64,000 nt of DNA from Jiella mangrovi. GTDB lineage: Bacteria > Pseudomonadota > Alphaproteobacteria > Rhizobiales > Rhizobiaceae. The stretch's first letter is position 1; the number at the start of each line of letters is the position of its first letter. Below are positions 49,752-64,000 of this stretch, piece by piece. The position numbers and the translations under genes are program-made. The notes beneath the pieces are model-generated. The model had not been told where the DNA came from. It saw nothing but the letters and a program-made list of their open reading frames with translations, and did not search any database. The stretch is taken from assembly GCF_017815135.1 (NCBI RefSeq), contig NZ_JAGJCF010000006.1:1-64000 (forward strand), read 5' to 3'.

Positions 49752-51581
49752 TCAGCCCTTCGCCACCACGATCCGAAATCCGTTGCCACGCCAGGAACCG
49801 GCGGGTTCGAGCGAGCCGCGATAGACGCCGTTCGCCTTCCAGGCCGGGCTGGAGAAGCAGCCGCCGCGCAGCACCCGGCGGATATTGGCCGGGGCATCGA
49901 GCGCCTCTCGGCCATCCGCCTGCCAGGGGAAGGCGAAGGATGGCGCCGCCATGTCGCGGCCCCAGAGCGTGGTGCACCATTCCCAGACCTGTCCGGCCAT
50001 GTCGAGACAGCCCGACGGCGCGCGGCCTTCCGGGAAAAGGCCCACGGTGCAGATGTCGTTGAAACCGGTTTCCTCGCCATTGGCATGTTCGCCGGCCCAG
50101 TCCTCGCCCCACGGATAAAGACGGCCGGAAGGTCCGCGTGCGGCCGCCTCCCATTCGCGCTCGCAAGGCAGGCGGGCGATTTCGTCCCGTCCGATCCGTC
50201 CTTCGGCGCGCCATCTCTCGGTGACCCAGGCGCAGTAGGCGCGAGCGTCATGCCAGGTGAGATCGGTGGCCGGATGGGAGGCGCGCTCCCGATTTCGGCC
50301 GTTGCCGCTCGCCCATGGCCGGCCGGTCTCAAGGACGAAGCGGAGATAGGCGGCGTTGACAACCGGGTAGACGCCGATCCTGAAATCGCCGACCGGGGCA
50401 TGGTGCGGCGGCGCGGAGTTCTGGTGGATGTCGCCGCCCATCGGGTACGTGCCCGCCGGAATGCCTGCCAGTTCCTCGAGGTCGCGCGGATCGCCGAGAC
50501 GGGCGAGAACCGCGCCTGCACGCCGTCTGAGGCCGGCCGGCGCGCCGCCCGCTGCGACCGCGCCGACCAGCGCTGCCGTCAGCGTTTCGGCCTCAGCGGT
50601 GCCGAGAGTGACGAGCTTGCCGGCGCAAAGCAGGATGGAAAGATCGGCGTCCGCCCGCGCAAGGCCGTGCGCCAGCGCCGCGGCCCGTGGCGCATCGGGC
50701 AGGATCTGGTCGCAGAGAAGGTCGAGCGGGCCGACCCACCGTTTCGGCTGCGCGGTGACGGTTTCAAGCAGCGCCTCGTCGCTCATCGCTTCGAGCGCTG
50801 CGGCATCGCGGAAGGTCTTTGCCCAGTCCGCGCCGGCCGATGCGCGGGCGGCGACCTCGTTGGGCGCCACCGGCCGACCAAGGTCGAGTGCGAGCTGCCA
50901 GAGGCCGGGAAGCAGGAAATCCTCGTCGTCTTGAGCCCCGGAAAATCCGTTCTCGGTCTCGAAGGCGGCGCGTTCCGGACGGGCAAGGCCGAGAAGGCCG
51001 TATTCGGGGATGCTCGCCGGCCGGCGTATGGCTTCGAGTGCGCGGCTTTCGCAAAGAATGAGAAGCCGGAGCGAGGGCCGCTCCCTGATCGCGGCCGCAC
51101 AGCGGGCAAGCAGCGCTGCCGGATCCGCGCGGGTCTCCAAGGCGTCTATGATCAGGAGAAGCTGCGTGTCGCCGCGGGAAAGGGCCTCGGCAAGCGCGGC
51201 ATCGGCGTCGTCGCCACGGCCGCAGAAAACGGCTTCCGGCAGCACTTCGGGCAGGATCTGCGCCTGAAGATCACCCTCGGCGTTGCGATAGGCCGGGCGG
51301 GAGAGATGCCTGCGGGCGGTTTCCTCGCCATTCAGCGCGCCGGACAGCAGCCGGGCGAAGGTGGTCTTGCCGCCGCCGTCGGGGGCATGCAGCAGCAGCG
51401 CCGGAAACATGAACACCATCTCGGCGGCGGTGAAATGCACCGGCCGGCGCGGCTCGGCCTCCTCGCCGCTGAAGGCGCGCAGGCCTTTGGCTTCCTTGTC
51501 CTCATGGGTGAAGCGGGAAAGGAGCGGCAGGATCGCCGTCTCGCCCGGTCTTCCACCGGTCGCCGTCATATCGGATGTCAT
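49752..51581 (-). CDS. P-loop NTPase fused to a formylglycine-generating-enzyme (SUMF1/EgtB-type) domain
   Basis: A 609-residue cytoplasmic fusion. The P-loop LLHAPDGGGKTTFARLL is near residues 63-79 and the Walker B LLLIIDALE at 141-149; helical linker residues follow, ending in RRRAGAVLARLGDPRDLEEL, the kind of bridge seen in other signalling-NTPase/FGE fusions. From about 373 the FGE-sulfatase fold starts (GIPAGTYPMGGD), with TWHDARAYCAWV, RLPCEREWEAAARG, WGEDWAGEHANGEE and RRVLRGGCF-x-GFRIVVAKG. The second active-site Cys of true FGE appears absent, so sulfatase maturation is doubtful. It overlaps the VOC gene by 4 bases and closes the peptide-transporter operon. Function unknown. Confidence 0.82.
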   Translation of the reverse strand: MTSDMTATGGRPGETAILPLLSRFTHEDKEAKGLRAFSGEEAEPRRPVHFTAAEMVFMFPALLLHAPDGGGKTTFARLLSGALNGEETARRHLSRPAYRNAEGDLQAQILPEVLPEAVFCGRGDDADAALAEALSRGDTQLLLIIDALETRADPAALLARCAAAIRERPSLRLLILCESRALEAIRRPASIPEYGLLGLARPERAAFETENGFSGAQDDEDFLLPGLWQLALDLGRPVAPNEVAARASAGADWAKTFRDAAALEAMSDEALLETVTAQPKRWVGPLDLLCDQILPDAPRAAALAHGLARADADLSILLCAGKLVTLGTAEAETLTAALVGAVAAGGAPAGLRRRAGAVLARLGDPRDLEELAGIPAGTYPMGGDIHQNSAPPHHAPVGDFRIGVYPVVNAAYLRFVLETGRPWASGNGRNRERASHPATDLTWHDARAYCAWVTERWRAEGRIGRDEIARLPCEREWEAAARGPSGRLYPWGEDWAGEHANGEETGFNDICTVGLFPEGRAPSGCLDMAGQVWEWCTTLWGRDMAAPSFAFPWQADGREALDAPANIRRVLRGGCFSSPAWKANGVYRGSLEPAGSWRGNGFRIVVAKG

Positions 51582-51973
51582 TTGAACAGCCGGGCAACGT
51601 CGGGATTGTGGAACCGCTGGATCTCGATCGCATAACCCGCCGGGTCCTCGAAGAAGAAATGCTCGCAGTAATTGCCGCGCAATATCTCGGAAAGGCCCGT
51701 CACGCCGGCCTCGGAGAGCTTTTCGTGCCAGCCGGCGACATCCTCGGAAACGACGGTCAGCAGCGCCGCGCTCTTCGGCTGATGCTTCAGATGGCCCTTG
51801 TTGCCGTCGACGATCCCGAAATAGGCGTTGCCGGCAATGCGGTAGATCCGTGCGAGCCCCTGGTCGAGCACGAGTTCGAAGCCGAGCACGTCCTCGTAGA
51901 ACGGAGCGACCGCATGGATGTCCTCGTAATAGTAGAAGGTGATGGCGCATTCTCGCGGCAGGCAGGTGGTCAT
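51578..51973 (-). CDS. VOC (glyoxalase/bleomycin-resistance fold) protein
   Basis: A 131-residue beta-alpha-beta-beta-beta protein of the vicinal-oxygen-chelate family: ITFYYYEDIHAVAPFYEDVLGF at the start and DPAGYAIEIQRF at the end, in which the Glu is the usual metal ligand. The substrate might be a thiol adduct or an intermediate of the surrounding pathway; a lactoylglutathione lyase role is not established. The ATG at 51973 has an AAGGA site; an open frame reaching 52060 is rejected. It sits between the binding-protein-like gene (17 bases upstream) and the NTPase-FGE gene. Confidence 0.85.
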   Translation of the reverse strand: MTTCLPRECAITFYYYEDIHAVAPFYEDVLGFELVLDQGLARIYRIAGNAYFGIVDGNKGHLKHQPKSAALLTVVSEDVAGWHEKLSEAGVTGLSEILRGNYCEHFFFEDPAGYAIEIQRFHNPDVARLFK

Positions 51974-51990
51974 GATGGTCCTTCTTTCAT

Positions 51991-53382
51991 TCACGCGACG
52001 CGCAGATAGCCCTTGGGATCGAGGTTGAAGCCCTCGAGCCCTGCGGTATGCGCCATGCAATCAACGGGATGGAACAGGTACAGCCAGTGTGGATGGGCGC
52101 CGAGATGAGCGAGCAGGCGGGCATAGGCCGCCGCGCGTTCTCCGGCTGCGACCGTGCGCCGGGCCGCTTCGAAGAGCGCATCGGCCTCATGATCCTCGAC
52201 GCCCTGCCACCAGACGGCACGCGAGCGGGACGAGATCTTGTCGTCCACGACACGGAACGTGCTGTGGGGCGAGGAATCGAAGATTGCGAGGTCGCCCGTC
52301 TTCTTCGCACCCAGCTCGCGAGCATAGCCCGGCCGGTCGTCGGCCGTGTCGATGGTGACGGCAAAGCCGACCGCCTCGAGGCTCCTGGCGATGAAGCCGG
52401 CAATCTTTGGCGCGCGCTCGGGCATGTAGAGCGGCGTGCGCACCGTCAGCGTCTTAGGTGCGCGGGAGGTGGCGACGAGTGCTGCGGCCCTTTCGGGGTC
52501 GTAGGGAATATCGGGCAATGCATCGCCCGTGCGGTTTTGGCTCACGCCGTTGTGGCCCATGCCATAGTGGAACGGGCTGACGATGGTCTTGGCTGGCACG
52601 CCGAGCCCGCCCATGACCTCGGAAACAAGCTTCTGGCGATCAAGCGCGAGGTTGGCTGCAAGCCTGAGGGCAGGGTCGGCAAAGGCTCCCTCACGCCCGT
52701 TCATGTAGGCGATCACCGAAAGCGTGGTCGCCTGCTCATGCCAGACATGGCCCGCAAGGGTTCGCCGCGGGTGTTGAAGGCGCTCCAGATGGGTGGCGAC
52801 AGCGATCTCGCCGGACTGAAGGGCCAGAAGCCGTGCTTCGGCCTCGGGCATGGCCACCAGCCGCAGCTTCCGCCCGTCGCCATGGCGGAGGGTCACCGAA
52901 GCACCGCGCTCGAAGGTGACCACCTGCCACGGCCCCGTGCCGATCGTCGCCGTTCCATCGGCCGCGATCTTCGGCAGGTAGAACTCCGACAGAATGTCCG
53001 GCAGATCGGGAAAAGCGGCTGGCGTTACGATCGAAAGCACGCTGCCGTCGGCGGTGATTTCGGCACCTTCGAGATAGCGGGCATAGGACCACGGCATGCC
53101 GAACATGTCGCGGGCATCGCAGATCGCGGCGATGAAGCGTCTGGCGTCCTCGGCCACTACCCGCGTGCCGTCATGATAGGCGGCGCCGTCGCGAAGCGTC
53201 AGCGTCCAGCGGCAGCCATCGTCGGAAAGATGCCAGCGGTCGAACAGGCCCGGCCGGGCCGCGCCGCTTTCCCATCGCAGCATCGGCTCCAGCACAAGGT
53301 TCTTCAGCGTCAGGATGCTGGCATCGTCGGTGACCCGGTCGGGCGGCAGGAAATCGACCTTTTCGAGCGCGATCGTGATCAT
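51991..53382 (-). CDS. SBP_bac_5-type protein without a signal peptide
   Basis: A 463-residue family-5 peptide/nickel-binding-protein homologue. It has LVLEPMLRW, the LSDDGCRWTLTLRDGAAYHDGTRV motif, IGTGPWQVVTFERG and LNLDPKGYL-like FNLDPKGYLRVA. It starts MITIALEKVDFLPPDRVTDD, with no hydrophobic or Tat-type leader, and overlaps the permease gene by 4 bases, so no upstream start could add one without entering that gene. It is also shorter than the secreted binding protein of the operon (532). It may be a cytosolic sensor like the SgrR C-terminal domain, or bind imported product; both are guesses. Confidence 0.8.
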   Translation of the reverse strand: MITIALEKVDFLPPDRVTDDASILTLKNLVLEPMLRWESGAARPGLFDRWHLSDDGCRWTLTLRDGAAYHDGTRVVAEDARRFIAAICDARDMFGMPWSYARYLEGAEITADGSVLSIVTPAAFPDLPDILSEFYLPKIAADGTATIGTGPWQVVTFERGASVTLRHGDGRKLRLVAMPEAEARLLALQSGEIAVATHLERLQHPRRTLAGHVWHEQATTLSVIAYMNGREGAFADPALRLAANLALDRQKLVSEVMGGLGVPAKTIVSPFHYGMGHNGVSQNRTGDALPDIPYDPERAAALVATSRAPKTLTVRTPLYMPERAPKIAGFIARSLEAVGFAVTIDTADDRPGYARELGAKKTGDLAIFDSSPHSTFRVVDDKISSRSRAVWWQGVEDHEADALFEAARRTVAAGERAAAYARLLAHLGAHPHWLYLFHPVDCMAHTAGLEGFNLDPKGYLRVA

Positions 53383-54212
53383 GCGGCACTCCTGCGACGC
53401 GGATTGAACCAGTCGGCGAGCGAATCCCCGATCAGGTTGAAGGAGAGCACGGTGATCAGGATGGCAAAGCCGGGTCCGAGCGCCGTCCACGGGCTCGAGC
53501 GCACGAAGCTGAGATTCGCGGAGACATCCGCGCCCCATTCCGGCATTGGCGGCTGGGCGCCGAGGCCGAGAAAGCCGAGCGCCGAGGTCTGCAGGATGGC
53601 GCTGCCGAAGGCGAGGGAGGCCTGCACGAGCAGCGGCCCAATGGCGTTGACGAGAATGTAGCGCGTGAGAATACGCCCTCGCGGCAGGCCCAGCGCATGG
53701 GCCGCCTCGACATAGAGCCTGGAGGACACGCCGAGCGCCTGGGCGCGGGCGACGCGGGCAAACTGCGGGGCGAGCGTGATCGCGACCGCGATCATGGCAT
53801 TCTGCAGGCTCGGCCCGAAGGCGGCGGCAAGCGCGATGGCCAGCACGAGTGCGGGAAACGACAGGATCGCATCGACGACGCGCATGATCACGGTGTCGAC
53901 GATGCCGCCGGCAAAACCGGCGACGAGGCCGAAGAACACCCCGACCACGAAGGCGAAGGCGACCACGAGCACGCCGATCGCCAGCGTATAGCGGCCGCCC
54001 TCCAGGACGCGGGAAAGCATGTCGCGGCCGAAATTGTCGGTCCCGAGCCAATGGCTGAACGATGGCGGTTGCAGTTTGGCGGCCATGTCGATGGCGAGCG
54101 GCGAAGGCAGGAGGAAGGGGCCGATGAGGACGGCGAGGAGCAGGATGGCGAGCACGATCGTGCCGGCGAGGGCGAGCGTATTGTTCGCAAGAAAACGTTT
54201 CAGGTCGCGCAT
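53379..54212 (-). CDS. Peptide/opine-type ABC transporter permease (DppC-like)
   Basis: A 277-residue inner-membrane permease with about six helices and the DppC-family features LAIDMAAKLQPPSFSHWLGTDNFGRDM near the N terminus and the EAA loop EAAHALGLPRGRILTRYIL. It is downstream of the DppB-like permease (10 bases) and coupled to the leaderless binding-protein-like gene by a 4-base overlap. It forms the second half of the translocation pore. Confidence 0.92.
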   Translation of the reverse strand: MRDLKRFLANNTLALAGTIVLAILLLAVLIGPFLLPSPLAIDMAAKLQPPSFSHWLGTDNFGRDMLSRVLEGGRYTLAIGVLVVAFAFVVGVFFGLVAGFAGGIVDTVIMRVVDAILSFPALVLAIALAAAFGPSLQNAMIAVAITLAPQFARVARAQALGVSSRLYVEAAHALGLPRGRILTRYILVNAIGPLLVQASLAFGSAILQTSALGFLGLGAQPPMPEWGADVSANLSFVRSSPWTALGPGFAILITVLSFNLIGDSLADWFNPRRRSAA

Positions 54213-54222
54213 GACTGTCTCC

Positions 54223-55233
54223 TCAGCTCATCTTTCGGCGAACGCGCGGATCAAGCACGGCATAGAGAATGTCGACGATGAGCGAAGTCAGCATGAACAT
54301 CAGCGCGAACACCAGCGTCGCGCCCTGAATGACGGGGTAGTCGCGGTTGCGGATCGCCTCGTACATGTAGCGACCGATCCCCGGCCAGGAGAAGATCGTC
54401 TCGGTGAGGATCGCGCCGCCGAGCATCTCGGCGAATTTGAGACCGATGACGGTGATGGCGGGCAGGAGCGAATTGCGCAGCGCATGCCTGTAGACGACAT
54501 CGTGGCGGCTCAGCCCCTTGGCGCGGGCGGTGCGCACGAAATCCTCGTCCATCACTTCCAGCATGGTGGAGCGCACGAACCGGCCGAGCGTCGCGGCCAG
54601 AAACACCGCCAGCACCGTGGTCGGCAGCACCATATGGGCAATGGCGCTGGAGACCGCGCCTGGCTCGCCGGAAAGCCACGCATCGATGATCGAAAAGCCG
54701 GTGACCCGGTCGACGAAGAAATAGGGCGAGATGCGACCCGACACCGGCAGCCAGCCGAGCCAGATTGCAAACACCAGCTGCAGCAGGAGCGCGAGCAGAA
54801 AGGCCGGCATCGAAACGCCGGTCAGCGAAATCACGCGCACGCTGTGATCGAAGCCGGAATTGGCGCGGGTTGCGCTGACGACGCCGATCGGAATGCCGAC
54901 GACAATGGCGATCAGGACTGCGTTGATCGAGATTTCGAGCGTGGCCGGCAGGCGGATCAGGATCTCGTTCAGCACCGGCTGGCCGCTCTTCAGCGAGTGG
55001 CCCATGTCGCCATGCAGGAGCCCGATGAAATAGCTCCAGAACTGGAAGAGCGCCGGCTGGTCGAGATCGAGCTGAGCGCGGAGCGCGATGATCTGGTCCC
55101 GGGTGGCACCCGGGCCGAGCAGGGTGACGGCCGGATCGCCCGGAATGAGGCGCACGAGCGAAAACACGATCACCAGCACCAGGAGCAGCACCGGTATCAA
55201 TGCCAGCAGCCGCCGCACGAGAAATGCAAACAT
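54223..55233 (-). CDS. Peptide/opine-type ABC transporter permease (DppB-like)
   Basis: A 336-residue permease. The signatures are RRLLALIPVLLLVLVIVFSL, GDPAVTLLGPGATRDQI, YFIGLLHGDMGHSLKSGQPV and the EAA loop TARAKGLSRHDVVYRHALRN followed by TETIFSWPGIGRYMYEAI. The ATG at 55233 has an AAGGTG site; the frame upstream to 55323 has no homology. It is 162 bases after the secreted binding protein and 10 bases before the DppC-like gene. Confidence 0.92.
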   Translation of the reverse strand: MFAFLVRRLLALIPVLLLVLVIVFSLVRLIPGDPAVTLLGPGATRDQIIALRAQLDLDQPALFQFWSYFIGLLHGDMGHSLKSGQPVLNEILIRLPATLEISINAVLIAIVVGIPIGVVSATRANSGFDHSVRVISLTGVSMPAFLLALLLQLVFAIWLGWLPVSGRISPYFFVDRVTGFSIIDAWLSGEPGAVSSAIAHMVLPTTVLAVFLAATLGRFVRSTMLEVMDEDFVRTARAKGLSRHDVVYRHALRNSLLPAITVIGLKFAEMLGGAILTETIFSWPGIGRYMYEAIRNRDYPVIQGATLVFALMFMLTSLIVDILYAVLDPRVRRKMS

Positions 55234-55395
55234 TCGGTCACCTTGCAGAAGGAGACGGCTCGGCTTGGGTGATGCCGAGCCGTCCGATGCCTTCATGCCC
55301 GCCGAGGCTGCTGTTGAAGGCAAATCATGTGAAGTGCCGCGCCCGCCGGCCGCTCTGTGGCGGAGGCGAGCCGGCCTTCATCGGGAGCGTTCCGA

Positions 55396-56994
55396 TTATT
55401 CCTTCGATACGCCCCAATATTCGGTCAGCGGCGGCGCCGAGTTGATGACCAGGCCATCGACATTCGCGCGGGTGAACACGATCAGATTCGGGCTGAACAG
55501 ATAGGCCGCCGGGACTTCTTTCACGAGATCTTCCTGGATTTCGCCGTAAAGCGCCTTGCGGGCGTCCATGTCGGGATCCTGCTGGGCCTTGAGGATCAGC
55601 GCGTCGAGCGACTTGTTCTCGGGCATGCGGAAGGTCATGGCCGTGTCCTTGAGGCTCGACAGATAGCCGATGGTGATGTGCGCGTCCGGGTCGTTGTACC
55701 ACGGCTGACGGCCATCGAGCGCGATGTCCCAGTCACCGGCGACATGCAGCGCGCGGTAGGACGGGAACTCGGTCTGGGCGATCTCGGTGTTGATGCCGAC
55801 GGCGGCGAGATTGGCCTGAACGAAGGTCGCGACATCGCCCCAGAGCGAGCCCTGGAAGGAATAGAGCTTGAGGTTCAGATCGCCCGGCTTGTAGCCGGCT
55901 TCCGCCAGAAGCTTCTTGGCAAGCTCCGGATCGTATTTCGGCGCGAGATCCTTGACCTTGGGGTCGAAGGCCCAGCTATTGGAGGTGAGTGGGCCGTAGA
56001 CGCGCTCGGCCGTGCCGTCGAAGACGCCGGAGAGCAGGCCGTCATAGTCGATCGCGTGGGCGATGGCTTCCCGGACCTTCAGATCGGCGACCGGCGAATC
56101 CGCTTTCGAGTTGTTGAACTCCAGCTGGCGGATGATCTGCGAGGGCTTCTCGATGATCTTGATGTCCGGATTGTCGGCGAAGGCCTTCATTTCCTCCGTC
56201 GGAACGGCTGACAGCTGGCTCTGCTGCTGGATGACGTCGATGCCGCCGTTTTCCAGCTCCAGCCTGCGGGTCGAGGCCTCGGGGATGATCCGGTAGATCA
56301 GGCGCTTGAGCTTGGAGGCGCCGCGGAAATATTTCGGGTTGGCATCGAGCACCACGCGGGTGTCCGCCTCGTAGGCGCGGAACGCGAACGGTCCCGTACC
56401 GACCGGGTGTTTGGCGAAGTCGGCGCCGTATTTCTCGACGGCGGCGGGCGAGACGATCGCCGCCTGCGGCTGCGCCAGGATCGACATGAACGCCGGATAG
56501 GGCTCGCTCAGATGGATGACCACCTCGCTGTCCGTCGGCGTGTCGATGCCCTCGATCATGCCGAGCGAGGCCTCGACGTAGGGGTTCAGCTTCTTGGTCC
56601 GCTCCAGCGAGAATTTCACGGCTTCGGCATTGAGCGGGGTGCCGTCCTGAAACTCGACGCCGTTTTGCAGGTCGAAGGTGAAGGTCTTTCCGTCCTCGGA
56701 GATCGACCAGTCCTTGGCGAGGCGGCCCTCAAGCTTGGAGAAATCCGGCGCCTTCCAGGCGACCAGCGTGTCGAAAACGTTGAGGATGATCTCGCTGCCG
56801 ACAGGTTCGGCCTTGTTGGTGCCGGGCTCGAGGCCGGCGGGGTCGGACGGAACCGCGATCACGAGCGTTTCGCTCTCTTGCGCGATGGCGGTAGTGGCGA
56901 AGCTGGCGACAGCACCGGCGGACACGAAGGCGGCAAAGCTCATGGCCAATGCGGCACCTGACATCGCGCCGAAGGATCTGCGGGTCAGGCTCAT
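55396..56994 (-). CDS. Secreted solute-binding protein, family 5 (peptide/opine type)
   Basis: A 532-residue periplasmic binding protein with a twin-arginine-like signal (MSLTRRSFGAMSGAALAM… ending AIAQE). The mature part starts LVIAVPSDPAGLEPGT and has DWSISEDGKTFTFDLQNGVEFQDG, VGTGPFAFRAYEADTRV and KVREAIAHAIDYDGLL, all typical of DppA/OppA/NikA-type proteins. It is the first transporter gene of the minus operon. The substrate is not predictable; the neighbours suggest a compound with N-C bonds to hydrolyse and sulfur to remove. Confidence 0.93.
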   Translation of the reverse strand: MSLTRRSFGAMSGAALAMSFAAFVSAGAVASFATTAIAQESETLVIAVPSDPAGLEPGTNKAEPVGSEIILNVFDTLVAWKAPDFSKLEGRLAKDWSISEDGKTFTFDLQNGVEFQDGTPLNAEAVKFSLERTKKLNPYVEASLGMIEGIDTPTDSEVVIHLSEPYPAFMSILAQPQAAIVSPAAVEKYGADFAKHPVGTGPFAFRAYEADTRVVLDANPKYFRGASKLKRLIYRIIPEASTRRLELENGGIDVIQQQSQLSAVPTEEMKAFADNPDIKIIEKPSQIIRQLEFNNSKADSPVADLKVREAIAHAIDYDGLLSGVFDGTAERVYGPLTSNSWAFDPKVKDLAPKYDPELAKKLLAEAGYKPGDLNLKLYSFQGSLWGDVATFVQANLAAVGINTEIAQTEFPSYRALHVAGDWDIALDGRQPWYNDPDAHITIGYLSSLKDTAMTFRMPENKSLDALILKAQQDPDMDARKALYGEIQEDLVKEVPAAYLFSPNLIVFTRANVDGLVINSAPPLTEYWGVSKE

Positions 56995-57051
56995 ACTGAA
57001 CTCCTCTTGTTTTCGACCGTCCGGATTTTTCCGGCGAAAGCTATTTCAATA

Positions 57052-57120
57052 CCCGTGATATTTCTTTTGCAATATCCAAAACAGAATCGAACGTCACGAA
57101 CTGGAGGATTTTGCGCAAAA
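57052..57120. promoter_or_regulatory. AT-rich promoter/operator region upstream of the binding-protein gene
   Basis: The 183-base gap holds CCCGTGATATTTC at 57052-57064, a near match to CCCGGTGATATATC on the opposite strand at 58071-58084, and a perfect 12-base palindrome TTTTGCGCAAAA at 57109-57120. A TTGCAA-17-TTGAAA promoter-like pair overlaps the first motif on the minus strand. A common regulator for both operons is suggested. Confidence 0.4.
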
Positions 57121-57177
57121 CAGGACTTGTCTGATTAGCGATTATGCATCTGCACCGATGCGCTGCACACAGGTTGA

Positions 57178-58044
57178 TCAGCGTGGAAACGGGCCGCGCC
57201 TGACCGGCCGGTCACCGCGGCTCACATATTGCGACCAGGAGCCCGGATACATCGCCGCCTCGACGCCAATCGCGGCAAGCGCCAGCACCTCGTGCGCCGC
57301 CGACATGCCGGCTCCGCAATAGACCCCGACCGGCTTTTCGCCGTCGACGCCGAGCCCTGAAAACAGCTCCCTGAGTGTGGCGCTGTCGGCGAACGGGCCG
57401 GGGTCGGTCAGCGTGTCGATCGTCGGCGCACTCAGGGCGCCCGGGATATGCCCGCGCGCCGGCTCGCCACCGACCTCGGGGCCGCCAATATAGTTGGGCC
57501 GGATGCGGGCATCGAGCAGTACGCCCTGGTCCGCAAGCGCGGCCGCCTGATCGGCACCAAATTGCGGCATATGCCCTTCCGTCAAAGAAATATCTGATTT
57601 TTCTGGCTTTAATGGCTCGCCGGCGGTCGGAAGTCCGGCCGCAATCCAGGCCGGCAGACCGCCGTCGAGCACGCGGACATCCGGCAGTCCCGCCCATCTC
57701 AGCACCCACCATGCGCGCGCTGCCGTCATCGCCCGATCGGCGTCGTAGATGACCACCGGGCGCTCGCGGGTGAGGCCCCAGCCCCGGGCCGCGGCCGTCA
57801 GATCGGCGATCGCGGGAAGCGGCCGGTTGCCGGCCTCCGGGCTCGCCGGCCCCTGAAAGTCGCGATAGGCCTCGCTCTCCACCGCGCCCGGAATATAGAC
57901 GCCGTTCCGCGAGTCGGCGCCGGTATAGGGATTGGAGGATTGCACCACCAGAATGTGCGGGGCGGCCGACCCCTCCATCATCTCGAAAAGCGCCTGTGGC
58001 GTCACCAGCACCCGGCTGCGCGTCTCGTCGTCAATCCTCAGCAT
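57178..58044 (-). CDS. Thiosulfate/3-mercaptopyruvate-type sulfurtransferase (two rhodanese domains)
   Basis: A 288-residue tandem-rhodanese protein. The N-terminal domain (about 12-140) lacks the Cys (IYDADRAMTAAR, Asp101), as usual, and the C-terminal domain (160-280) has the active-site Cys243 in VGVYCGAGMSAAHE, close to the CG[S/A]G loop of mercaptopyruvate sulfurtransferases. It moves sulfane sulfur to an acceptor such as cyanide or a thiol. It lies 183 bases before the binding-protein gene and divergent from the ATPase operon. Together with the C-S lyase at the window end it implies a sulfur-bearing substrate. Confidence 0.88.
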   Translation of the reverse strand: MLRIDDETRSRVLVTPQALFEMMEGSAAPHILVVQSSNPYTGADSRNGVYIPGAVESEAYRDFQGPASPEAGNRPLPAIADLTAAARGWGLTRERPVVIYDADRAMTAARAWWVLRWAGLPDVRVLDGGLPAWIAAGLPTAGEPLKPEKSDISLTEGHMPQFGADQAAALADQGVLLDARIRPNYIGGPEVGGEPARGHIPGALSAPTIDTLTDPGPFADSATLRELFSGLGVDGEKPVGVYCGAGMSAAHEVLALAAIGVEAAMYPGSWSQYVSRGDRPVRRGPFPR

Positions 58045-58069
58045 CGAAGCCTCTCAAGCTGCGTATCCA

Positions 58070-58123
58070 TGATATATCACCGGGCATTTTATTTTTGATA
58101 GAACGGTTGCAATGCGGTGTAAA
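58070..58123 (+). promoter_or_regulatory. Promoter and operator of the plus-strand catabolic operon
   Basis: TTGATA (58095-58100) and TGTAAA (58118-58123), 17 bases apart, fit a sigma-70-type promoter with the ATG 50 bases downstream. Just upstream is the perfect palindrome TGATATATCA (58070-58079), shared in part with the binding-protein promoter region. The divergent sulfurtransferase starts at 58044, so the site could control both directions. Confidence 0.5.
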
Positions 58124-58173
58124 TCGATGCAACAAAAAAGTCTTCCGCGTTCCTCTCCACGGAAATCGCCGTC

Positions 58174-59967
58174 ATGTCCATTCTGTCCGTCCGCGACCTG
58201 ACCACCGCCTTTTCGACCGCCGAAGGCTGGCGCAACGCCGTCGACGGCGTGAGCTTCGATGTCGATGCGGGAGAAACCCTGGCGATCGTCGGCGAGTCGG
58301 GCTCCGGCAAGAGCGTCACCGCGCTGTCGGTCATGGGCCTGCTCCCGAAAGGCAAGGCGCGGGTGACCGGCGCGGTCCATTTCCGCGGCCGCGATCTGCT
58401 GGCGCTATCCGAAGAGGAGATGCAGGCTGTGCGCGGCAACGAGGTGGCGATGATCTTTCAGGAGCCGATGACTTCGCTGAACCCGGTGATGTCCGTCGGT
58501 GCCCAGATTGCCGAACCTTTGCGGCGCCATCGCGGCTTGGCGAAGCGGGCCGCGATGAAGGAGGCGGTCCGGCTGATGGACCGGGTGCGGATCCCGGCCG
58601 CGGCCAGGCGCGCCTCGGAATATCCTCATGAAATGTCCGGCGGCATGCTGCAGCGCGTGATGATCGCGACCGCGCTTGCCTGCGCGCCGAAGCTGTTGAT
58701 CGCCGACGAGCCGACCACGGCGCTCGACGTGACGATCCAGGCGCAGATCCTGGAGCTGATCAAGGAGCTGCAGGCCGAGGACAACATGGCGGTGATGTTC
58801 ATCACCCACGACATGGGCGTGGTTGCCGAAATCGCCGAAAAGACCGTGGTGATGTACCGCTCCAAAGTGCTGGAGACGGGTGCCACCGAGGACGTCTTCG
58901 CCCGGCCGGCGACCGATTACACCCGTGAGCTTCTGGCCGCCGCTCCCCGCCTCGGCGATCTCGGCGAAAGCCCCGTTCCTCGCCCCTATCCCGGGCGCGA
59001 CGGTGTGCTGGCCGATCCGGTCGACACCGTCGATCACGGCGGCGAGGCTCTCCTCGAGGTCAAGAATCTCTGCGCCCGGTTCGATCTGCGCAAGGGTGTT
59101 CTCGGCCGGGTTCACGCTCGTGTCCACGCGGTGGAGAACGTCTCGTTTTCGCTGCGCAGGGGCGAGACGCTTGCGCTCGTCGGGGAATCGGGCTGCGGCA
59201 AATCCACCACCGGACGCGCCATTCTCCGGCTGACCAAATCCGTCTCCGGCACGGTCACGCTGGACGGGCAGAATGTTTCGAGCCTGTCGCACACCGAGCT
59301 GATGCGGCTTCGCCAGTCGATGCAGATGATTTTTCAGGATCCGTTCTCCAGCCTCAACCCGCGCATGCGGGTCGGCGCGGCGATCGCGGAGCCGATGCTC
59401 GCCCATGGTCTGGCAAAGCCTGCCGAAGCGCGAACCAGGGTCGCCGGCCTTCTGGAAAATGTCGGGCTTTCGCCGGATATGGCGACGCGCTGGCCGCATG
59501 AATTTTCCGGTGGGCAGCGCCAGCGCATCGCGATCGCCCGCGCGCTCGGTCTCGATCCGAAGCTGATCATCGCGGACGAGTCCGTCTCCGCCCTCGATGT
59601 CACCATCAAGGCGCAGGTGGTGAATCTGATGATGCGGCTGCAGCAGGAACTCGGCCTGTCTTATCTGTTCATCAGCCATGACATGGCCGTGGTCGAACGC
59701 GTCAGCCACCGGGTCGCCGTCATGCTTCTCGGCGAGATCGTCGAGATCGGACCGCGCGCCGAGATCTTCGCCAACCCCGCCCATCCCTATACGAAGCGCC
59801 TGCTCTCCGCCGTGCCGGAACCGGACCCCGCCCGCCGGCTGATGCGGCGCGACATCCCGCTTCAGGAACTGAAAAGCCCGATCTTTCCCGCCGACTTCAT
59901 GCCGCCGCGCCGTGTCTATGACACGGTCGGTCCCGATCATTTCGTCATGCGCCAAGAGGCCGCGTGA
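58174..59967 (+). CDS. Two-domain ABC transporter ATPase (DppD-DppF fusion)
   Basis: A 597-residue ATPase with both peptide-transporter nucleotide-binding domains in one chain, like GsiA. Domain 1 (about 3-265): Walker [30 protein letters not shown], Walker [14 protein letters not shown]. Domain 2 (about 290-560): [47 protein letters not shown] (Glu followed by Ser rather than Pro). The permeases and binding proteins are encoded on the other strand across the 129-base divergent region. It overlaps the racemase gene by 4 bases (GTGA). Confidence 0.94.
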
Positions 59968-60653
59968 GCCTGCAGAGTAACAATATCATGGCGCGTATTC
60001 TCGTTCTGAACCCCAACAGTTCCGAGAAGGTGACGGACTCCATCCGTCGCTCTGTTGCCGGCCTTGGCGCGACAACGGACCACCAGCTCGTGTTCGAGCG
60101 CCTGCCGGCGGCCCCGCTCGGCATCGAAGACGACGCCGATGTCGAGGCCGTCGGCCCGATGGTGCGTGCGCGCGCACTCGTCGGCGATGCCGATGCCGTG
60201 GTCGTCGCCTGTTTTTCCGATCCCGGCGTCGACGATACCCGCTCGGTGGTGACGGACATCCCGGTGATCGGCGTCGCCGAGGCCGGCTATTATGCCGCGC
60301 TCCAGTTCGGCCGGCGCTTCGGCGTCGTCTCGCTCGGCCCGGCCTCGATTGCGCGCCATGCGGTGCGGATCAATAGGCTCGGCATCGCCGCCCGTCTCGC
60401 CGGCGATCGCTCGGCAGACCTCACGGTCGAGGAATCGGGCGACGAGGGACTGTCGCGCGCCAAGGTCATCGAGACCGGCAAGGCGCTTGCGAGTCAGGAT
60501 GGCGCCGATGTCATCGTGCTCGGCTGTGCCGGCATGGGCAACCAGCGCCCGTTCCTGCAGCAGGCGATCGGCCTGCCCGTCATCGATCCGGTGCAGGCCG
60601 GGGTCGCCGCCGCGATTTCCGCTCTCAATCTCGAATATATTGCGAAGGCTTGA
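59964..60653 (+). CDS. Asp/Glu/hydantoin-racemase-family protein
   Basis: A 229-residue racemase-fold enzyme with the start ILVLNPNSSEKVTDSI and two catalytic cysteines, Cys83 (VVVACFSDPG) and Cys188 (VLGCAGM), as in hydantoin and allantoin racemases. It would invert a stereocentre before ring opening by the next enzyme. The GTG at 59964 has an AAGAGG site and overlaps the ATPase stop by 4 bases; the ATG at 59988 (MARILVLNP) is closer to usual family starts. The substrate could be a 5-substituted hydantoin or a related ring. Confidence 0.86.
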   Translation: MSLQSNNIMARILVLNPNSSEKVTDSIRRSVAGLGATTDHQLVFERLPAAPLGIEDDADVEAVGPMVRARALVGDADAVVVACFSDPGVDDTRSVVTDIPVIGVAEAGYYAALQFGRRFGVVSLGPASIARHAVRINRLGIAARLAGDRSADLTVEESGDEGLSRAKVIETGKALASQDGADVIVLGCAGMGNQRPFLQQAIGLPVIDPVQAGVAAAISALNLEYIAKA

Positions 60654-60655
60654 AT

Positions 60656-62023
60656 ATGGACCTGTTATTGCGCGGAACCGTCATCACTCCGCTTGCCGCC
60701 ATCGAAGGCGGCTGGATCGGCGTTCGTGACGGCAAGATCGCGGCGATCGGCGACGGCACCGCGACGCCGCCGGAGGCGGCGAAGACCGTCGATTACGGTG
60801 ATCGCCTGATCTTGCCCGGCGTGATCGACGGCCAGACCCACGCGACCAGCGCCAAGGGGCTTCAAGGCATCGGCGATACCACCCGCTCGGCGATTGCCGG
60901 CGGTGTCACGACGCTGGTCGACATGCCGTTCGACAACCCGGCCCCGCTCGACCGACCCGAACGGCTTGCGGCAAAGGTCGAAGCGATCGCCGCTCACAGC
61001 CATGCCGATATCGCGCTTTACGCAACAGTCACCGCCGAGACCGGCACGGAAGAGATCGACGCGCTGATTGCTGGCGGCGTCGTTGCCTTCAAGATCTCCT
61101 CGTTTGAGAGCTCGCCGACGCGGTTTCCCAGGATCGATGCCGCGCTGATGCTCGACATCATGGAAAAGCTTGCCCCGACCAACCTGCCGATCGGCCTCCA
61201 CAACGAGGATCAGGAAATCGTGCTCGCGCGCATGGCGCGCGCCCGCGCGGCCGGCGAAAACGGCATCACCGCTCACTCCGCCGCCAGGCCCGTGGCCGCC
61301 GAGCTTGCGGCGACCGCCCAGTTTCTGGCGCTTGCGCAGGCAACCGGCGCGCATGCCCATCCGGTGCATCTGTCGAGTGGCGACGGGTTCTCGCAGGTCG
61401 GCGCCTTCGCTGAGCTTGGCGTGCGCGCCACCGGAGAAACCTGCGTGCATTATCTCTGGTTCGATGCCGCCCGCGATGGCGAAAGGCTTGGCCCGCGCAT
61501 GAAGGTCAATCCGCCGATCCGCCCCGGCGAGGTCGAAAATCTCTGGGATGCGATCGTGGATGGGCTCGTCGCCTTCACCTCGTCGGATCATTCCAGCTGG
61601 CCGATCGACGGCAAGCTGACGGACTCGATCTTCGATGCCGGCGCCGGCGTGCCGGGTCTCGAAACGCTGCTCCCGGCCTTCTTCACCGCCGCCGAAGCAC
61701 GTGGCCTCGACGCCGCCATGCTCGCCGCCGAACAGCTCTCGGAGCGCCCGGCCGCCTTCTTCGGCATCGCCGATCGCAAGGGCGCGATCCGGGTCGGCAT
61801 GGATGCGGATTTCGCCATTCTGGAACAGGGCGCCTTCATCTGGGATGAGGCGAAGGCCCATGACGGCCTGAACTGGTCGCCCTTCCATGGCGACACCTTC
61901 ACGGTGCGGGTCGCGGCCACGTATCTGCGCGGCGAATGCGGCTTCGACGGCAACGCCATCACCGGCCGGCAGGGCTCGGGGCGCCATGTCGCGCGCGGCG
62001 CCAATTGCTGGTTCGGCAACTGA
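60656..62023 (+). CDS. Cyclic amidohydrolase (dihydropyrimidinase/allantoinase/D-hydantoinase superfamily)
   Basis: A 455-residue metal-dependent amidohydrolase. Ligands fitting the superfamily are Lys146 (VVAFKISSF, carboxylated in relatives), His182, His238 (HPVHLSS) and Asp311 (SSDHSSWP). The first metal motif reads LPGVIDGQTHATS, with Gln60 where the family has the first His of HxH, so the metal site may be altered. The ATG at 60656 with a GAAGG site is preferred over a TTG at 60650. It follows the racemase by two bases, suggesting racemase then ring-opening. Allantoinase or DHOase activity is not assured. Confidence 0.85.
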   Translation: MDLLLRGTVITPLAAIEGGWIGVRDGKIAAIGDGTATPPEAAKTVDYGDRLILPGVIDGQTHATSAKGLQGIGDTTRSAIAGGVTTLVDMPFDNPAPLDRPERLAAKVEAIAAHSHADIALYATVTAETGTEEIDALIAGGVVAFKISSFESSPTRFPRIDAALMLDIMEKLAPTNLPIGLHNEDQEIVLARMARARAAGENGITAHSAARPVAAELAATAQFLALAQATGAHAHPVHLSSGDGFSQVGAFAELGVRATGETCVHYLWFDAARDGERLGPRMKVNPPIRPGEVENLWDAIVDGLVAFTSSDHSSWPIDGKLTDSIFDAGAGVPGLETLLPAFFTAAEARGLDAAMLAAEQLSERPAAFFGIADRKGAIRVGMDADFAILEQGAFIWDEAKAHDGLNWSPFHGDTFTVRVAATYLRGECGFDGNAITGRQGSGRHVARGANCWFGN

Positions 62024-62034
62024 GGATAGGGAAG

Positions 62035-62961
62035 ATGAGCCTTCTGACCAACGACGCCAGAGGCGTCTACGTGATCTCGGTCACGCCGTTTCACGACAAC
62101 GGCGCGGTCGATTTCGACAGTCTCGACCGCGTTACCGACTTCTATCTCGAAAAGGGTGCGACCGGCATCACCGTGCTCGGCATGATGGGCGAAGCGCCGA
62201 AGCTGACCCAGGCGGAAGCGCGCGAAATCGTCGAGCGCGTCATCAGGCGCGCTGCGGGCACGCCAGTCGTCGCCGGTGTCTCTGCCCCCGGCCTCGCCGC
62301 GATTTCCGAGCTTTCGAAGGTCGTGATGGATCTGGGCGCTGCAGGCGTCATGATCGCCCCGCCCGCAAGCCTGCGGACCGACGAGCAGATCGCGACCTAT
62401 TACGGCCAGGCCTGCGCCGCCGCCGGCGATGGTGTGCCTGTCGTGCTGCAGGATTTCCCGCTGTCGACGGGCGTGCAGATCTCCGTTCCGCTGATGGGCC
62501 GGATCATCGAGGACAACGACCAGATCGTCATGCTGAAGCATGAGGACTGGCCGGGCCTCGCCAAGATCTCCGCGCTGCGCGATGCCGAGAGCAAGGGTCG
62601 CCGCCGGATCTCGATCCTCTGCGGCAATGGCGGCGTGTTCCTGCCGGAAGAGATGGCGCGCGGTGCCAATGGTGCGATGACCGGCTTCGGCTATCCGGAA
62701 ATGATGGCGGATGTGGTCGCGCTTGCGGATGCCGGCGACATGGACCGGGCGCAGGATATCTTCGACGCCTATCTGCCGCTGGTGCGCTACGAGCAGCAGC
62801 CGGGTCTCGGCCTTGCCGTGCGCAAATATGCGCTCGCAAAGCGCGGCGCGATTGCCTCCGCGGCTCTGCGCAAGCCCGGCGCCGGACTTGCGCCGGCCGC
62901 CGTCGTCGAGGTCGAGCGCCTCATCGAAAGACAGACAAGAAGACTGAAGGAACTCGGCTGA
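62035..62961 (+). CDS. DHDPS/NAL-family class-I aldolase, catalytic Tyr absent
   Basis: A 308-residue (beta/alpha)8 lyase or synthase. The Schiff-base Lys168 is in VMLKHEDW, and the entry segment TGITVLGMMGE replaces the GTTGE of DapA. The loop LQDFPLSTG lacks the Tyr of LYNVPSRTG, so this is not dihydrodipicolinate synthase. The family includes many pyruvate-forming or -using aldolases, dehydratases and deaminases. The ATG at 62035 has AGGG upstream. It is 11 bases after the amidohydrolase and its stop shares one base with the SDR start. Confidence 0.84.
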   Translation: MSLLTNDARGVYVISVTPFHDNGAVDFDSLDRVTDFYLEKGATGITVLGMMGEAPKLTQAEAREIVERVIRRAAGTPVVAGVSAPGLAAISELSKVVMDLGAAGVMIAPPASLRTDEQIATYYGQACAAAGDGVPVVLQDFPLSTGVQISVPLMGRIIEDNDQIVMLKHEDWPGLAKISALRDAESKGRRRISILCGNGGVFLPEEMARGANGAMTGFGYPEMMADVVALADAGDMDRAQDIFDAYLPLVRYEQQPGLGLAVRKYALAKRGAIASAALRKPGAGLAPAAVVEVERLIERQTRRLKELG

Positions 62962-63731
62962 TGGATTTCAAGCTTACCGGAAAACGCGCGCTGGTGATCG
63001 GCGCAAGCCGCGGCCTCGGTGCGGCCTGCGCAGCGCTTCTCGCAGAAGAAGGCGCGAGCGTGATTGCCGCCTCCCGTTCGGGCGCTCTGCCCGACGGGCT
63101 TTCGCCCGCGACCGCCGCGCGGATCACGGCTGTCGCGCTCGATCTCGAAGACAAGCAGTCGGTTGCGGCCATGAAGGAGCGGCTTACCAGCGAGCCGGTC
63201 GATATCCTCGTCAACAATTGCGGCGGCCCGAAAGCTGGACCTGCACGCGGCCAGTCCGCCGCTGTATGGCAGGCGGCCTTCGCCGCCATGGCGACGCCCG
63301 TCTTCGAACTGACCGATGCGGCGCTCGCCGGCATGAGCGACAAGGGCTGGGGCCGCGTCATCACCATCGGTTCGTCGGGCATCGAGGTGCCGATCCCCAA
63401 TCTGGCGCTGTCGAACGGTGTGCGCGGCGCCATGGCCGGCTGGTCGAAGACGCTTGCGAGTGAAGTCGCCGACAAGGGTATCACCGTGAACATGGTGCTG
63501 CCTGGCCGGATCGCGACCGACCGCTTGGCCGAACTCGATGCCGGCAAGGCCGCCAAGACCGGCGAGAGCGTGGAGGCCGTGCGCGAGGCGTCGCGCAAGA
63601 CCATCCCCGCGGGCCGCTACGGCCGGCCGGAGGAATTCGCGGCGATCGTCGCTTTCCTCGCCTCAGAGCAGGCAAGCTTCGTCACCGGTTCGATGATCCG
63701 CGCCGATGGCGGCATGATCCGGAGCCTGTGA
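62961..63731 (+). CDS. Short-chain dehydrogenase/reductase
   Basis: A 256-residue SDR with LVIGASRGLGAACAAL for the cofactor. VNNCGGPKAG takes the place of the NNAG motif, and GSSGIEVPIPNLALSNGVRG takes the usual Ser…Tyr-x3-Lys region but shows no Tyr-x3-Lys there; the third residue set reads NLALSNGVRGAM. This subgroup of oxidoreductases with Asn/Ser instead of Tyr is frequent in rhizobia. The start overlaps the DHDPS-type gene by one base. It may reduce or oxidise the lyase product. Confidence 0.85.
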   Translation: MDFKLTGKRALVIGASRGLGAACAALLAEEGASVIAASRSGALPDGLSPATAARITAVALDLEDKQSVAAMKERLTSEPVDILVNNCGGPKAGPARGQSAAVWQAAFAAMATPVFELTDAALAGMSDKGWGRVITIGSSGIEVPIPNLALSNGVRGAMAGWSKTLASEVADKGITVNMVLPGRIATDRLAELDAGKAAKTGESVEAVREASRKTIPAGRYGRPEEFAAIVAFLASEQASFVTGSMIRADGGMIRSL

Positions 63732-64000
63732 TGACCGCGATCGTTTCCGTCGACCGGCGCGGCAGCGATGCCAACAAATGGCGGGCCTTCGGGCCCGACG
63801 TCATCCCGCTGCCGGTCGCCGACATGGATTTCGCGGTCGCGCCGGAAATCATCGCCGCGATCGAAAAGCGCCTTGCCCATCCGGTGCTCGGTTACGGAGC
63901 TGCGACCGACAGCCTGCGCCAAACGCTGGTAGCAGCGCTTGCGGCCGAATATGGCTGGCGCGTCGAGCCTGAATGGCTGGTGTTCCTGCCCGGCGTCGAG
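63731..64000 (+). CDS. PatB/MalY-type PLP-dependent C-S beta-lyase, N-terminal part
   Basis: The first 90 codons of a class I/II aminotransferase-fold enzyme that runs out of the window. KWRAFGPDVIPLPVADMDFAV and HPVLGYGAATDSLRQTLVAAL match the substrate-binding and start region of MalY/PatB cystathionine beta-lyases, with the conserved W-x-VADMDF pattern (here LPVADMDF) and a GYG. Such enzymes cleave C-S bonds of cysteine conjugates, releasing thiol, pyruvate and ammonia. The ATG overlaps the SDR stop by one base, so the operon continues. Confidence 0.85.
   Translation, partial: MTAIVSVDRRGSDANKWRAFGPDVIPLPVADMDFAVAPEIIAAIEKRLAHPVLGYGAATDSLRQTLVAALAAEYGWRVEPEWLVFLPGVE

Follow-up and report, generated by a model that had tools for sequence, protein, structure and literature searches.

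The window analysed here, a stretch of 64,000 nucleotides (positions 1-64000 of one contig of the 4.93 Mb Jiella mangrovi genome), carries two divergent operons between position 49752 and its end, which very probably form one conserved unit with an importer of its own. This is well supported because the rhodanese and the PatB-type C-S lyase of the unit co-occur, the gene order of the left operon is kept, and the gene for a P-loop NTPase fused to an FGE-like domain is found within this gene set in each of the three genomes (of 397 of the order) where it occurs. More tentatively, and at slightly less than even confidence, we propose that the whole is one modular uptake-and-catabolism cluster working along a route of five steps. 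Counting a GntR regulator beyond the window, the cluster has 14 genes:

49752-51581, minus strand: P-loop NTPase fused to an FGE-like (SUMF1/EgtB/PvdO fold) domain (NTPase-FGE), 609 amino acids; FGE-sulfatase 125.8 bits, residues 372-605
51578-51973, minus strand: VOC (glyoxalase-fold) protein; Glyoxalase 41.4 bits
51991-53382, minus strand: SBP_bac_5 protein without signal peptide ("leaderless"), probably cytosolic; 141.4 bits and N-termini
53379-54212, minus strand: ABC permease, OppC/DppC type; BPD_transp_1 109.8 bits, OppC_N
54223-55233, minus strand: ABC permease, OppB/DppB type; BPD_transp_1 152.8 bits
55396-56994, minus strand: periplasmic SBP_bac_5 binding protein with a signal-peptide-like start (LTRRSFGA); 302.4 bits and N-termini
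57178-58044, minus strand: tandem rhodanese, 3-mercaptopyruvate sulfurtransferase-like, loop CGAGMSA; Rhodanese 74.3 bits in 2 stretches, SseA model 106.5 bits (cut-off 250)
58045-58173, no strand: divergent intergenic region between the two operons, with presumed promoters
58174-59967, plus strand: fused double ABC ATPase, GsiA-like; ABC_tran in 2 stretches, GsiA model 758 bits (cut-off 1077)
59988-60653, plus strand: Asp/Glu/hydantoin racemase with two conserved cysteines; 169.3 bits
60656-62023, plus strand: cyclic amidohydrolase (AMH), sister of ErtD, with QxH, FK and RFPRI motifs; ErtD 473 bits (cut-off 600), allantoinase 272 bits
62035-62961, plus strand: DHDPS-family enzyme with LQDFP and LKHED motifs; PF00701 106.7 bits
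62961-63731, plus strand: atypical SDR with LA(L/I/V)SN replacing the classical YxxxK; adh_short_C2 141.2 bits
63728-64000, plus strand: 5' part of the PatB/MalY C-S lyase gene, which ends at 64876 (L007:7729-8877); TIGR04350 390 bits (cut-off 340)
about 64883-65611, beyond the window, downstream of PatB/MalY: GntR/FCD regulator

The minus-strand operon comprises the seven genes from NTPase-FGE to the rhodanese and the plus-strand operon those from the ATPase to GntR/FCD, with operon-like spacing in which many adjacent genes overlap or almost touch. Above the Pfam cut-offs are FGE-sulfatase, the glyoxalase fold, two SBP_bac_5, two BPD_transp_1, rhodanese, ABC_tran, Asp/Glu/hydantoin racemase and amidohydrolase, as well as DHDPS, SDR and class I/II aminotransferase. 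An earlier note on this DNA, made from the letters and their translations, had read the two operons as one uptake and breakdown unit, and they are indeed conserved together with their own importer. The genes that it named are all present where it placed them, with their families above the Pfam cut-offs. Two details need amending: the PatB/MalY gene that it reported starts in the window, at 63728, and ends outside it, and the transporter parts are as described except that there are two SBP_bac_5 proteins, where the note had one binding protein and did not mention the second.

The five steps that we propose are as follows. First, the peptide-type ABC importer would, to judge by its family, take up a small and acidic compound of the cyclic ureide type, a hydantoin or something closely analogous, which either is itself a cysteine S-conjugate or derives from one. 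Second, the two-cysteine racemase would interconvert its enantiomers. Third, and this is the best supported step, the ErtD-like amidohydrolase would open the ring, the arginines of its RFPR motif probably gripping the acidic side chain, to give a ureido (N-carbamoyl) acid. Fourth, PatB would cut the C-S bond by beta-elimination and the rhodanese would accept the sulfur. Finally, at the weak end of the route, the DHDPS-type enzyme and the atypical SDR might act on the carbon skeleton. GntR would regulate the cluster, and the VOC protein, the leaderless binding protein and NTPase-FGE would accompany the importer. The evidence points to a class of compounds, of the acidic cyclic urea type and sulfur-linked, rather than to a specific one; that the sulfur travels with the imported compound, in a thio group or as a cysteine S-conjugate, is a nearly balanced judgement, to which we lend marginally less than even weight.

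The case for a single unit comes from its distribution. A profile built from 15 aligned AMH sequences, including the window's, recovered 114 relatives in a scan of genome contigs; counts over 80 loci use 80 of these 114 (L037-L116), to which the 14 cluster proteins were mapped by tblastn with identity thresholds for orthologues that we set ourselves. The racemase and the DHDPS-type enzyme are present in 75 of the 80 loci each, GntR in 63, the SDR in 41, the rhodanese, PatB and the periplasmic binding protein in 39 each, the OppB- and OppC-type permeases in 38 and 37, the VOC protein and the leaderless binding protein in 36 each, the fused ATPase in 31 and NTPase-FGE in at least 17, a lower bound because the 10 kb flanks cut off its gene in most loci. 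Rhodanese and PatB are both present in 38 of the 80 loci, a single one in 2 and neither in 40. The left-operon order, namely VOC protein, leaderless binding protein, OppC-type permease, OppB-type permease, periplasmic binding protein and rhodanese, is identical in 36 of the 39 rhodanese-bearing loci, and because it recurs in several families we take the cluster to be more than a chance neighborhood. Likewise, the racemase gene lies immediately 5' of AMH in 72/80 loci, AMH is followed by the DHDPS gene in 36 of the 39 rhodanese-bearing loci (in L067 by way of its second AMH copy), and the SDR, by our threshold, occurs in 29 of these 39, always directly before PatB.

The NTPase-FGE gene is rare, being found at E 1e-40 in 3 of 397 genomes of the order, that of J. 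mangrovi included, and cluster genes are present beside all three. Genome G340 has it with cluster genes in the window's order as far as the racemase, inside which the stretch read stops, so that no AMH was seen there; in genome G229 the cluster genes are rearranged but together around it, with no SDR detected in the stretch. On plasmids, the 8 best NTPase-FGE matches (48-63% identity over the matched part) lie on 8 records, the same 8 that hold the close rhodanese (61% identity or more), and all of them have an AMH homologue; in two, the cluster spans the start of the circular record. PatB homologues, too, are present on all 8. The earlier note had looked to a joint occurrence of the transporter with racemase, amidohydrolase, lyase and C-S lyase as support for one pathway, and this is found, the exceptions being two of the 8 plasmids, on which PatB is far off. 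The unit is nevertheless patchy: at E 1e-60 there is no AMH in the nine congeners searched. A search of 385 genomes of the class at E 1e-45 gave the close rhodanese in J. mangrovi alone and was of no help here. Beyond the close 8 there are six distant plasmid homologues of the rhodanese, four of which were inspected: the two annotated ones lie in other contexts, and on the two unannotated plasmids the panel of cluster proteins matched the rhodanese only, plus a weak GntR match in one. An ant-associated plasmid of Pseudonocardia (L123:10001-20121) carries what resembles a sulfur-scavenging cluster, in which a luciferase-like monooxygenase, an acyl-CoA-dehydrogenase-like protein and a peptide-type ABC importer accompany a rhodanese with 46% identity to that of the window. 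On plasmids of Neorhizobium galegae (L036:14591-15962) and Alloyangia pacifica T6124 (L025:226-1488), the AMH annotation is fragmentary or the match to it falls into three parts, and the gene looks frameshifted or decayed.

Across the loci AMH occurs in three contexts, which we labelled A, B and C locus by locus. Type A combines the AMH core with the rhodanese, PatB and the peptide-type importer; its hosts include Martelella, Rhizobium, Neorhizobium, Agrobacterium, Devosia, Microvirga, Alloyangia and Pseudooceanicola, and Gluconacetobacter and Ameyamaea have a variant of it. In type B, to which 15 AMH rows in one clade of the tree belong, the racemase and AMH are accompanied by DHDPS, permeases, ATPases, SBP_bac_5 proteins and a VOC protein of 38-42% identity, with no rhodanese match; 13 of the 15 loci also have another amidohydrolase, which in the member scanned (L019) is of the TRZ/ATZ deaminase type. 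In type C the racemase or an amidase stands with AMH and usually DHDPS (often also the SDR) beside amino-acid-type ABC or TRAP transporters, sometimes with flavin adenine dinucleotide (FAD) oxidoreductases or a creatininase-family protein, although a few type C labels are possibly artefacts of contig ends or of our cut-offs. Since the core of racemase, AMH and DHDPS thus also stands beside other transporters and in loci with no rhodanese, the sulfur genes resemble a plug-in module, and the simplest reading is a core (racemase, AMH, DHDPS, often SDR) combined with exchangeable import and sulfur modules. Microvirga zambiensis (L067) has types A and C in tandem: of its two AMH copies, separated by a few kb, one stands beside rhodanese, racemase and PatB, the other beside amidase, DHDPS and an SDR.

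Turning to the enzymes, the best NCBIfam model for AMH is ErtD (hydantoin-5-propionate amidohydrolase, NF058538), at 472.7-473 bits and below its cut-off of 600; the allantoinase model gives 272 bits. ErtD-like proteins of four other loci reach 681-793 bits and an AMH-like second protein on a Microvirga plasmid 678. In the DGQTH of AMH a Gln takes the place of the first His of the usual HxH metal motif, just as in the ErtD proteins, while the metal-site residues Lys, His, His and Asp are retained. AMH and ErtD have in common QxH, the FK lysine, RFPR(I/V), KxxPP(I/V)RP and DHxSW; as the last is also found in a solved D-hydantoinase, QxH and RFPR are the telling motifs. RFPR is kept in 96 of 98 AMH loci (the other two are unaligned) and does not occur in the five nearest solved hydantoinases and allantoinases. 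The substrate of ErtD has a carboxylate side chain, from which we infer that the RFPR arginines of AMH probably hold an acidic side chain too; the sister relationship to ErtD, with QxH and RFPR, makes a cyclic ureide with such a side chain a rather likely substrate. The hydantoinase-type reading of this enzyme in the earlier note is strengthened by the closeness to ErtD, as it is by the carbamoylase-type gene in two Acetobacteraceae clusters described below.

Could AMH simply be an ErtD, and the cluster the lower part of an ergothioneine (thiourocanate/thiohydantoin-propionate) route? The best NCBIfam match and the shared QxH and RFPR would fit such a route, which we nonetheless consider very improbable: AMH remains at 473 bits against 600, where five ErtD-like proteins elsewhere have 678-793, and the 14 cluster genes, which instead include the racemase and the sulfur genes, contain no ammonia-lyase-type, urocanate-hydratase-type or ErtE gene (the first two were not searched for in the rest of the genome). 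In contrast, L023 and L024 have genes annotated as ammonia-lyase, urocanate-hydratase and Zn-hydrolase near ErtD, the Zn hydrolase of L023 scoring above the ErtE cut-off. Membership of AMH in ErtD was accordingly rejected, on score and on the ergothioneine genes missing from the cluster. One paper (PMC13405746) deals with ergothionase, thiourocanate and thiourocanate desulfhydrase, and cites an ergothioneine-sulfonate route in Agrobacterium. A Microvirga ossetica plasmid (L019) encodes the ErtD-like protein of 678 bits (above the cut-off); DUF917 and a Zn hydrolase accompany it, and a type B racemase-amidohydrolase cluster lies some 11 kb away.

The racemase has CFSDP in 90/90 loci and GCA in 89 of the 90 (one is unaligned), so that both cysteines are kept, and its best PDB matches are named hydantoin racemases, followed by allantoin racemase. 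The adjacent racemase and cyclic amidohydrolase recall the hydantoinase process (racemase, hydantoinase, carbamoylase), from which the window's cluster differs in having no carbamoylase and in its extra DHDPS, SDR, PatB, rhodanese, VOC and NTPase-FGE genes. A carbamoylase-type gene is, however, part of the Acetobacteraceae variants L091 and L112, which have the racemase, rhodanese, AMH, PatB and importer genes along with an M20 hydrolase, a CapA-like protein and a 2-hydroxyacid dehydrogenase (families were scanned in L091, and L112 was assigned by grouping); no DHDPS or SDR match was found in either stretch. The M20 hydrolase of L091 is of the N-carbamoyl-amino-acid-hydrolase type, above the PRK12891 cut-off, and among the 80 loci this family was grouped in L091, L112 and L116. 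Its place in the cluster of L091 and L112 lends support to N-carbamoyl products of AMH.

On the sulfur side, PatB passes TIGR04350 (PatB family C-S lyase) with 390 bits against a cut-off of 340, and its pyridoxal phosphate-binding lysine, in (S/A)K(T/S), is kept in 45/45 loci. Its nearest solved relative is PDB 5z0q, which we take to be OvoB, an identity that our literature search did not confirm. The rhodanese keeps the loop CGAG(M/V)SA in 47/47 loci, presumably resembling that of mercaptopyruvate sulfurtransferases. The DHDPS-type enzyme is nearest to PDB 3dz1 (deposited as dihydrodipicolinate synthase; 358 bits), and the next PDB match, an L-2-keto-3-deoxyarabonate dehydratase, has 96.8 bits; the QD and K-x-E common to the latter and our enzyme hint that it dehydrates its substrate instead of cleaving it in an aldol reaction. 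At the YxxxK site the SDR has LA(L/I/V)SN in at least 52 of 56 loci (four were not printed), so that the classical YxxxK is not found; L(A/G)LSN stands there in its four nearest PDB relatives. Double-bond reductases are among the SDRs that lack the tyrosine, and the present one may not be an alcohol dehydrogenase.

With a racemase, a ring hydrolase and then PatB cleaving cysteine, the cluster might alternatively be a 2-aminothiazoline-4-carboxylate (ATC) type route. The DL-ATC to L-cysteine route of Pseudomonas, as set out in PMC10821248, shares this logic, proceeding by way of a racemase, a ring-opening hydrolase, a carbamoyl-cysteine hydrolase and a cysteine desulfhydrase, and the carbamoylase-type gene of the Acetobacteraceae variant would suit it. 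Yet AMH belongs to another Pfam family than the ATC hydrolase, and DHDPS and SDR would go unexplained; ATC_hydrolase (PF14196) has 0 matches in the genome, but the control genomes gave none either. We regard this alternative as improbable.

The importer is of the peptide type, with SBP_bac_5, two permeases and a fused double ATPase like GsiA, and in this matches the GsiABCD and Opp-Dpp importers; it differs in its ATPase, which has 758 bits in the GsiA model, below the cut-off of 1077, and in the extra leaderless SBP_bac_5 and VOC genes of the operon. The leaderless protein has no hydrophobic leader and starts at the mature start in the 14 N-termini printed of 44 sequences. The VOC protein is 73-91% identical in 15 aligned type A sequences and 38-42% in 5 of type B, and surpasses six cluster enzymes in conservation in 33 of 36 loci; the matches listed in a fold search were all generic (glyoxalase, fosfomycin and antibiotic-binding proteins) and do not indicate its substrate. 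In NTPase-FGE, the Walker A residues and D146 are invariant in 9/9 aligned sequences, as is an RGGC in the FGE domain, while a conserved Cys pair is absent from the alignment positions matching the FGE active-site pair, with N and G nearby in the window's protein. The FGE domain therefore need not act on sulfur. A structure model of NTPase-FGE has a mean predicted local distance difference test (pLDDT) score of 57, with the FGE half poor, so that its fold matches are weak: one half matches ToxD and FGE, the other AAA+ proteins, and an entry from the maltose system (MalT/MalY), ranked 50 with E 0.015, is only a hint.

The FGE-like domain, with its weak SenA, EgtB and OvoA matches, and the PatB-type lyase might also call to mind a biosynthetic cluster for a thiol-imidazole-like compound, with an FGE-type sulfoxide synthase and a C-S lyase as in ergothioneine or ovothiol synthesis. 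Sulfoxide synthases (EgtB/OvoA) carry an iron-binding N-terminal domain, where NTPase-FGE has a P-loop region and Pfam sees the FGE domain alone; its score in the EgtB model is 49.6 bits against a cut-off of 360, the FGE cysteine pair is not kept, and the importer and GntR fit catabolism. A biosynthetic cluster is hence scarcely credible. As a candidate by itself, NTPase-FGE was rejected both as a sulfoxide synthase and as a formylglycine enzyme, neither fitting its residues and domain make-up.

Returning to the five-step route, a number of observations weigh against it. There is no rhodanese within the flanks in 41 of the 80 AMH loci, so that AMH itself need not see sulfur and the majority of the steps lack sulfur specificity. 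In a tree of 100 AMH rows, made by a quick maximum-likelihood method (with long branches flagged, the second amidohydrolase of L067 labelled C, and L034 labelled A by hand as its rhodanese is on another fetched piece, L035), the type A label needs 12 changes, of which starred branches force at least 6, and this implies an exchange of the sulfur and import genes among lineages of AMH. The two plasmids with PatB far from the cluster are those of Rhizobium rhizoryzae and Terrarubrum, the latter with no DHDPS or SDR annotated beside AMH, and strain UR115 has a PatB homologue and an SDR fragment with no AMH within the 21 kb read. Among the enzymes, AMH falls short of the ErtD cut-off, and the DHDPS-type enzyme and SDR are without a clear place in a hydantoin route. 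The window's cluster has no carbamoylase; genome-wide a single one exceeds the cut-off, and it neighbors another amidohydrolase on contig 12 (G000:C12:540122-543297), probably in a separate pyrimidine or hydantoin locus. Accordingly, the order of steps in the earlier note (racemise, ring-open, cleave, desulfurate) is upheld only in part, the lack of a carbamoylase in the cluster and of YxxxK in the SDR telling against the rest. The substrate that the note suggested, a cysteine-derived hydantoin, thiohydantoin or cyclic peptide-like compound, stays an inference.

Some of these points would also suit two functional modules that share a neighborhood only, one for organosulfur scavenging (importer, rhodanese, PatB, VOC, NTPase-FGE) and one for a cyclic amide (racemase, AMH, DHDPS, SDR). 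Such a division would agree with the core loci without a detected rhodanese, with the forced label changes in the tree, with the distant position of PatB on 2 of 8 plasmids, and with the related Pseudonocardia rhodanese next to importer, monooxygenase and acyl-CoA-dehydrogenase-like genes. However, the close rhodanese is accompanied by an AMH homologue on 8 of 8 plasmid records, the left-operon order is kept in 36 of 39 loci, the rearranged G229 retains both gene sets, and the importer's ATPase is the first gene of the other operon. We deem two separate modules unlikely, and favor the single modular uptake-and-catabolism cluster. A bolder version, which we rate as rather unlikely too, if slightly less so, is an undescribed route in which a general racemising and ring-opening core for an acidic cyclic ureide is joined by a sulfur-and-import module that can be exchanged, and in which NTPase-FGE, VOC and the leaderless binding protein would form a new cytosolic ligand-handling or sensing set, perhaps partnered by the MalY-type lyase. 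In E. coli, MalY restrains the STAND protein MalT. Among the papers that our searches of the open-licence PMC literature listed, none described such a cluster.

Two further features of the locus deserve mention. An inverted repeat (GTTGCA-16-TGCAAC, 58106-58133) in the divergent promoter region is a possible regulator site, or may be due to chance. Additionally, 3' of the cluster, at about 69028-74512 (L007:13029-18513), open reading frames for a DRL-type oxidoreductase, a 3-hydroxyisobutyrate-dehydrogenase-like protein and an apparent three-part TRAP transporter probably constitute another catabolic operon.

Finally, the retention of this unit across several alphaproteobacterial families and on rhizobial plasmids points to an unrecognised natural compound with nitrogen and sulfur. 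Comparison of its variants, namely those with the sulfur genes, with the deaminase-like amidohydrolase and with the carbamoylase-type gene, makes the substrate class testable with a few purified enzymes.

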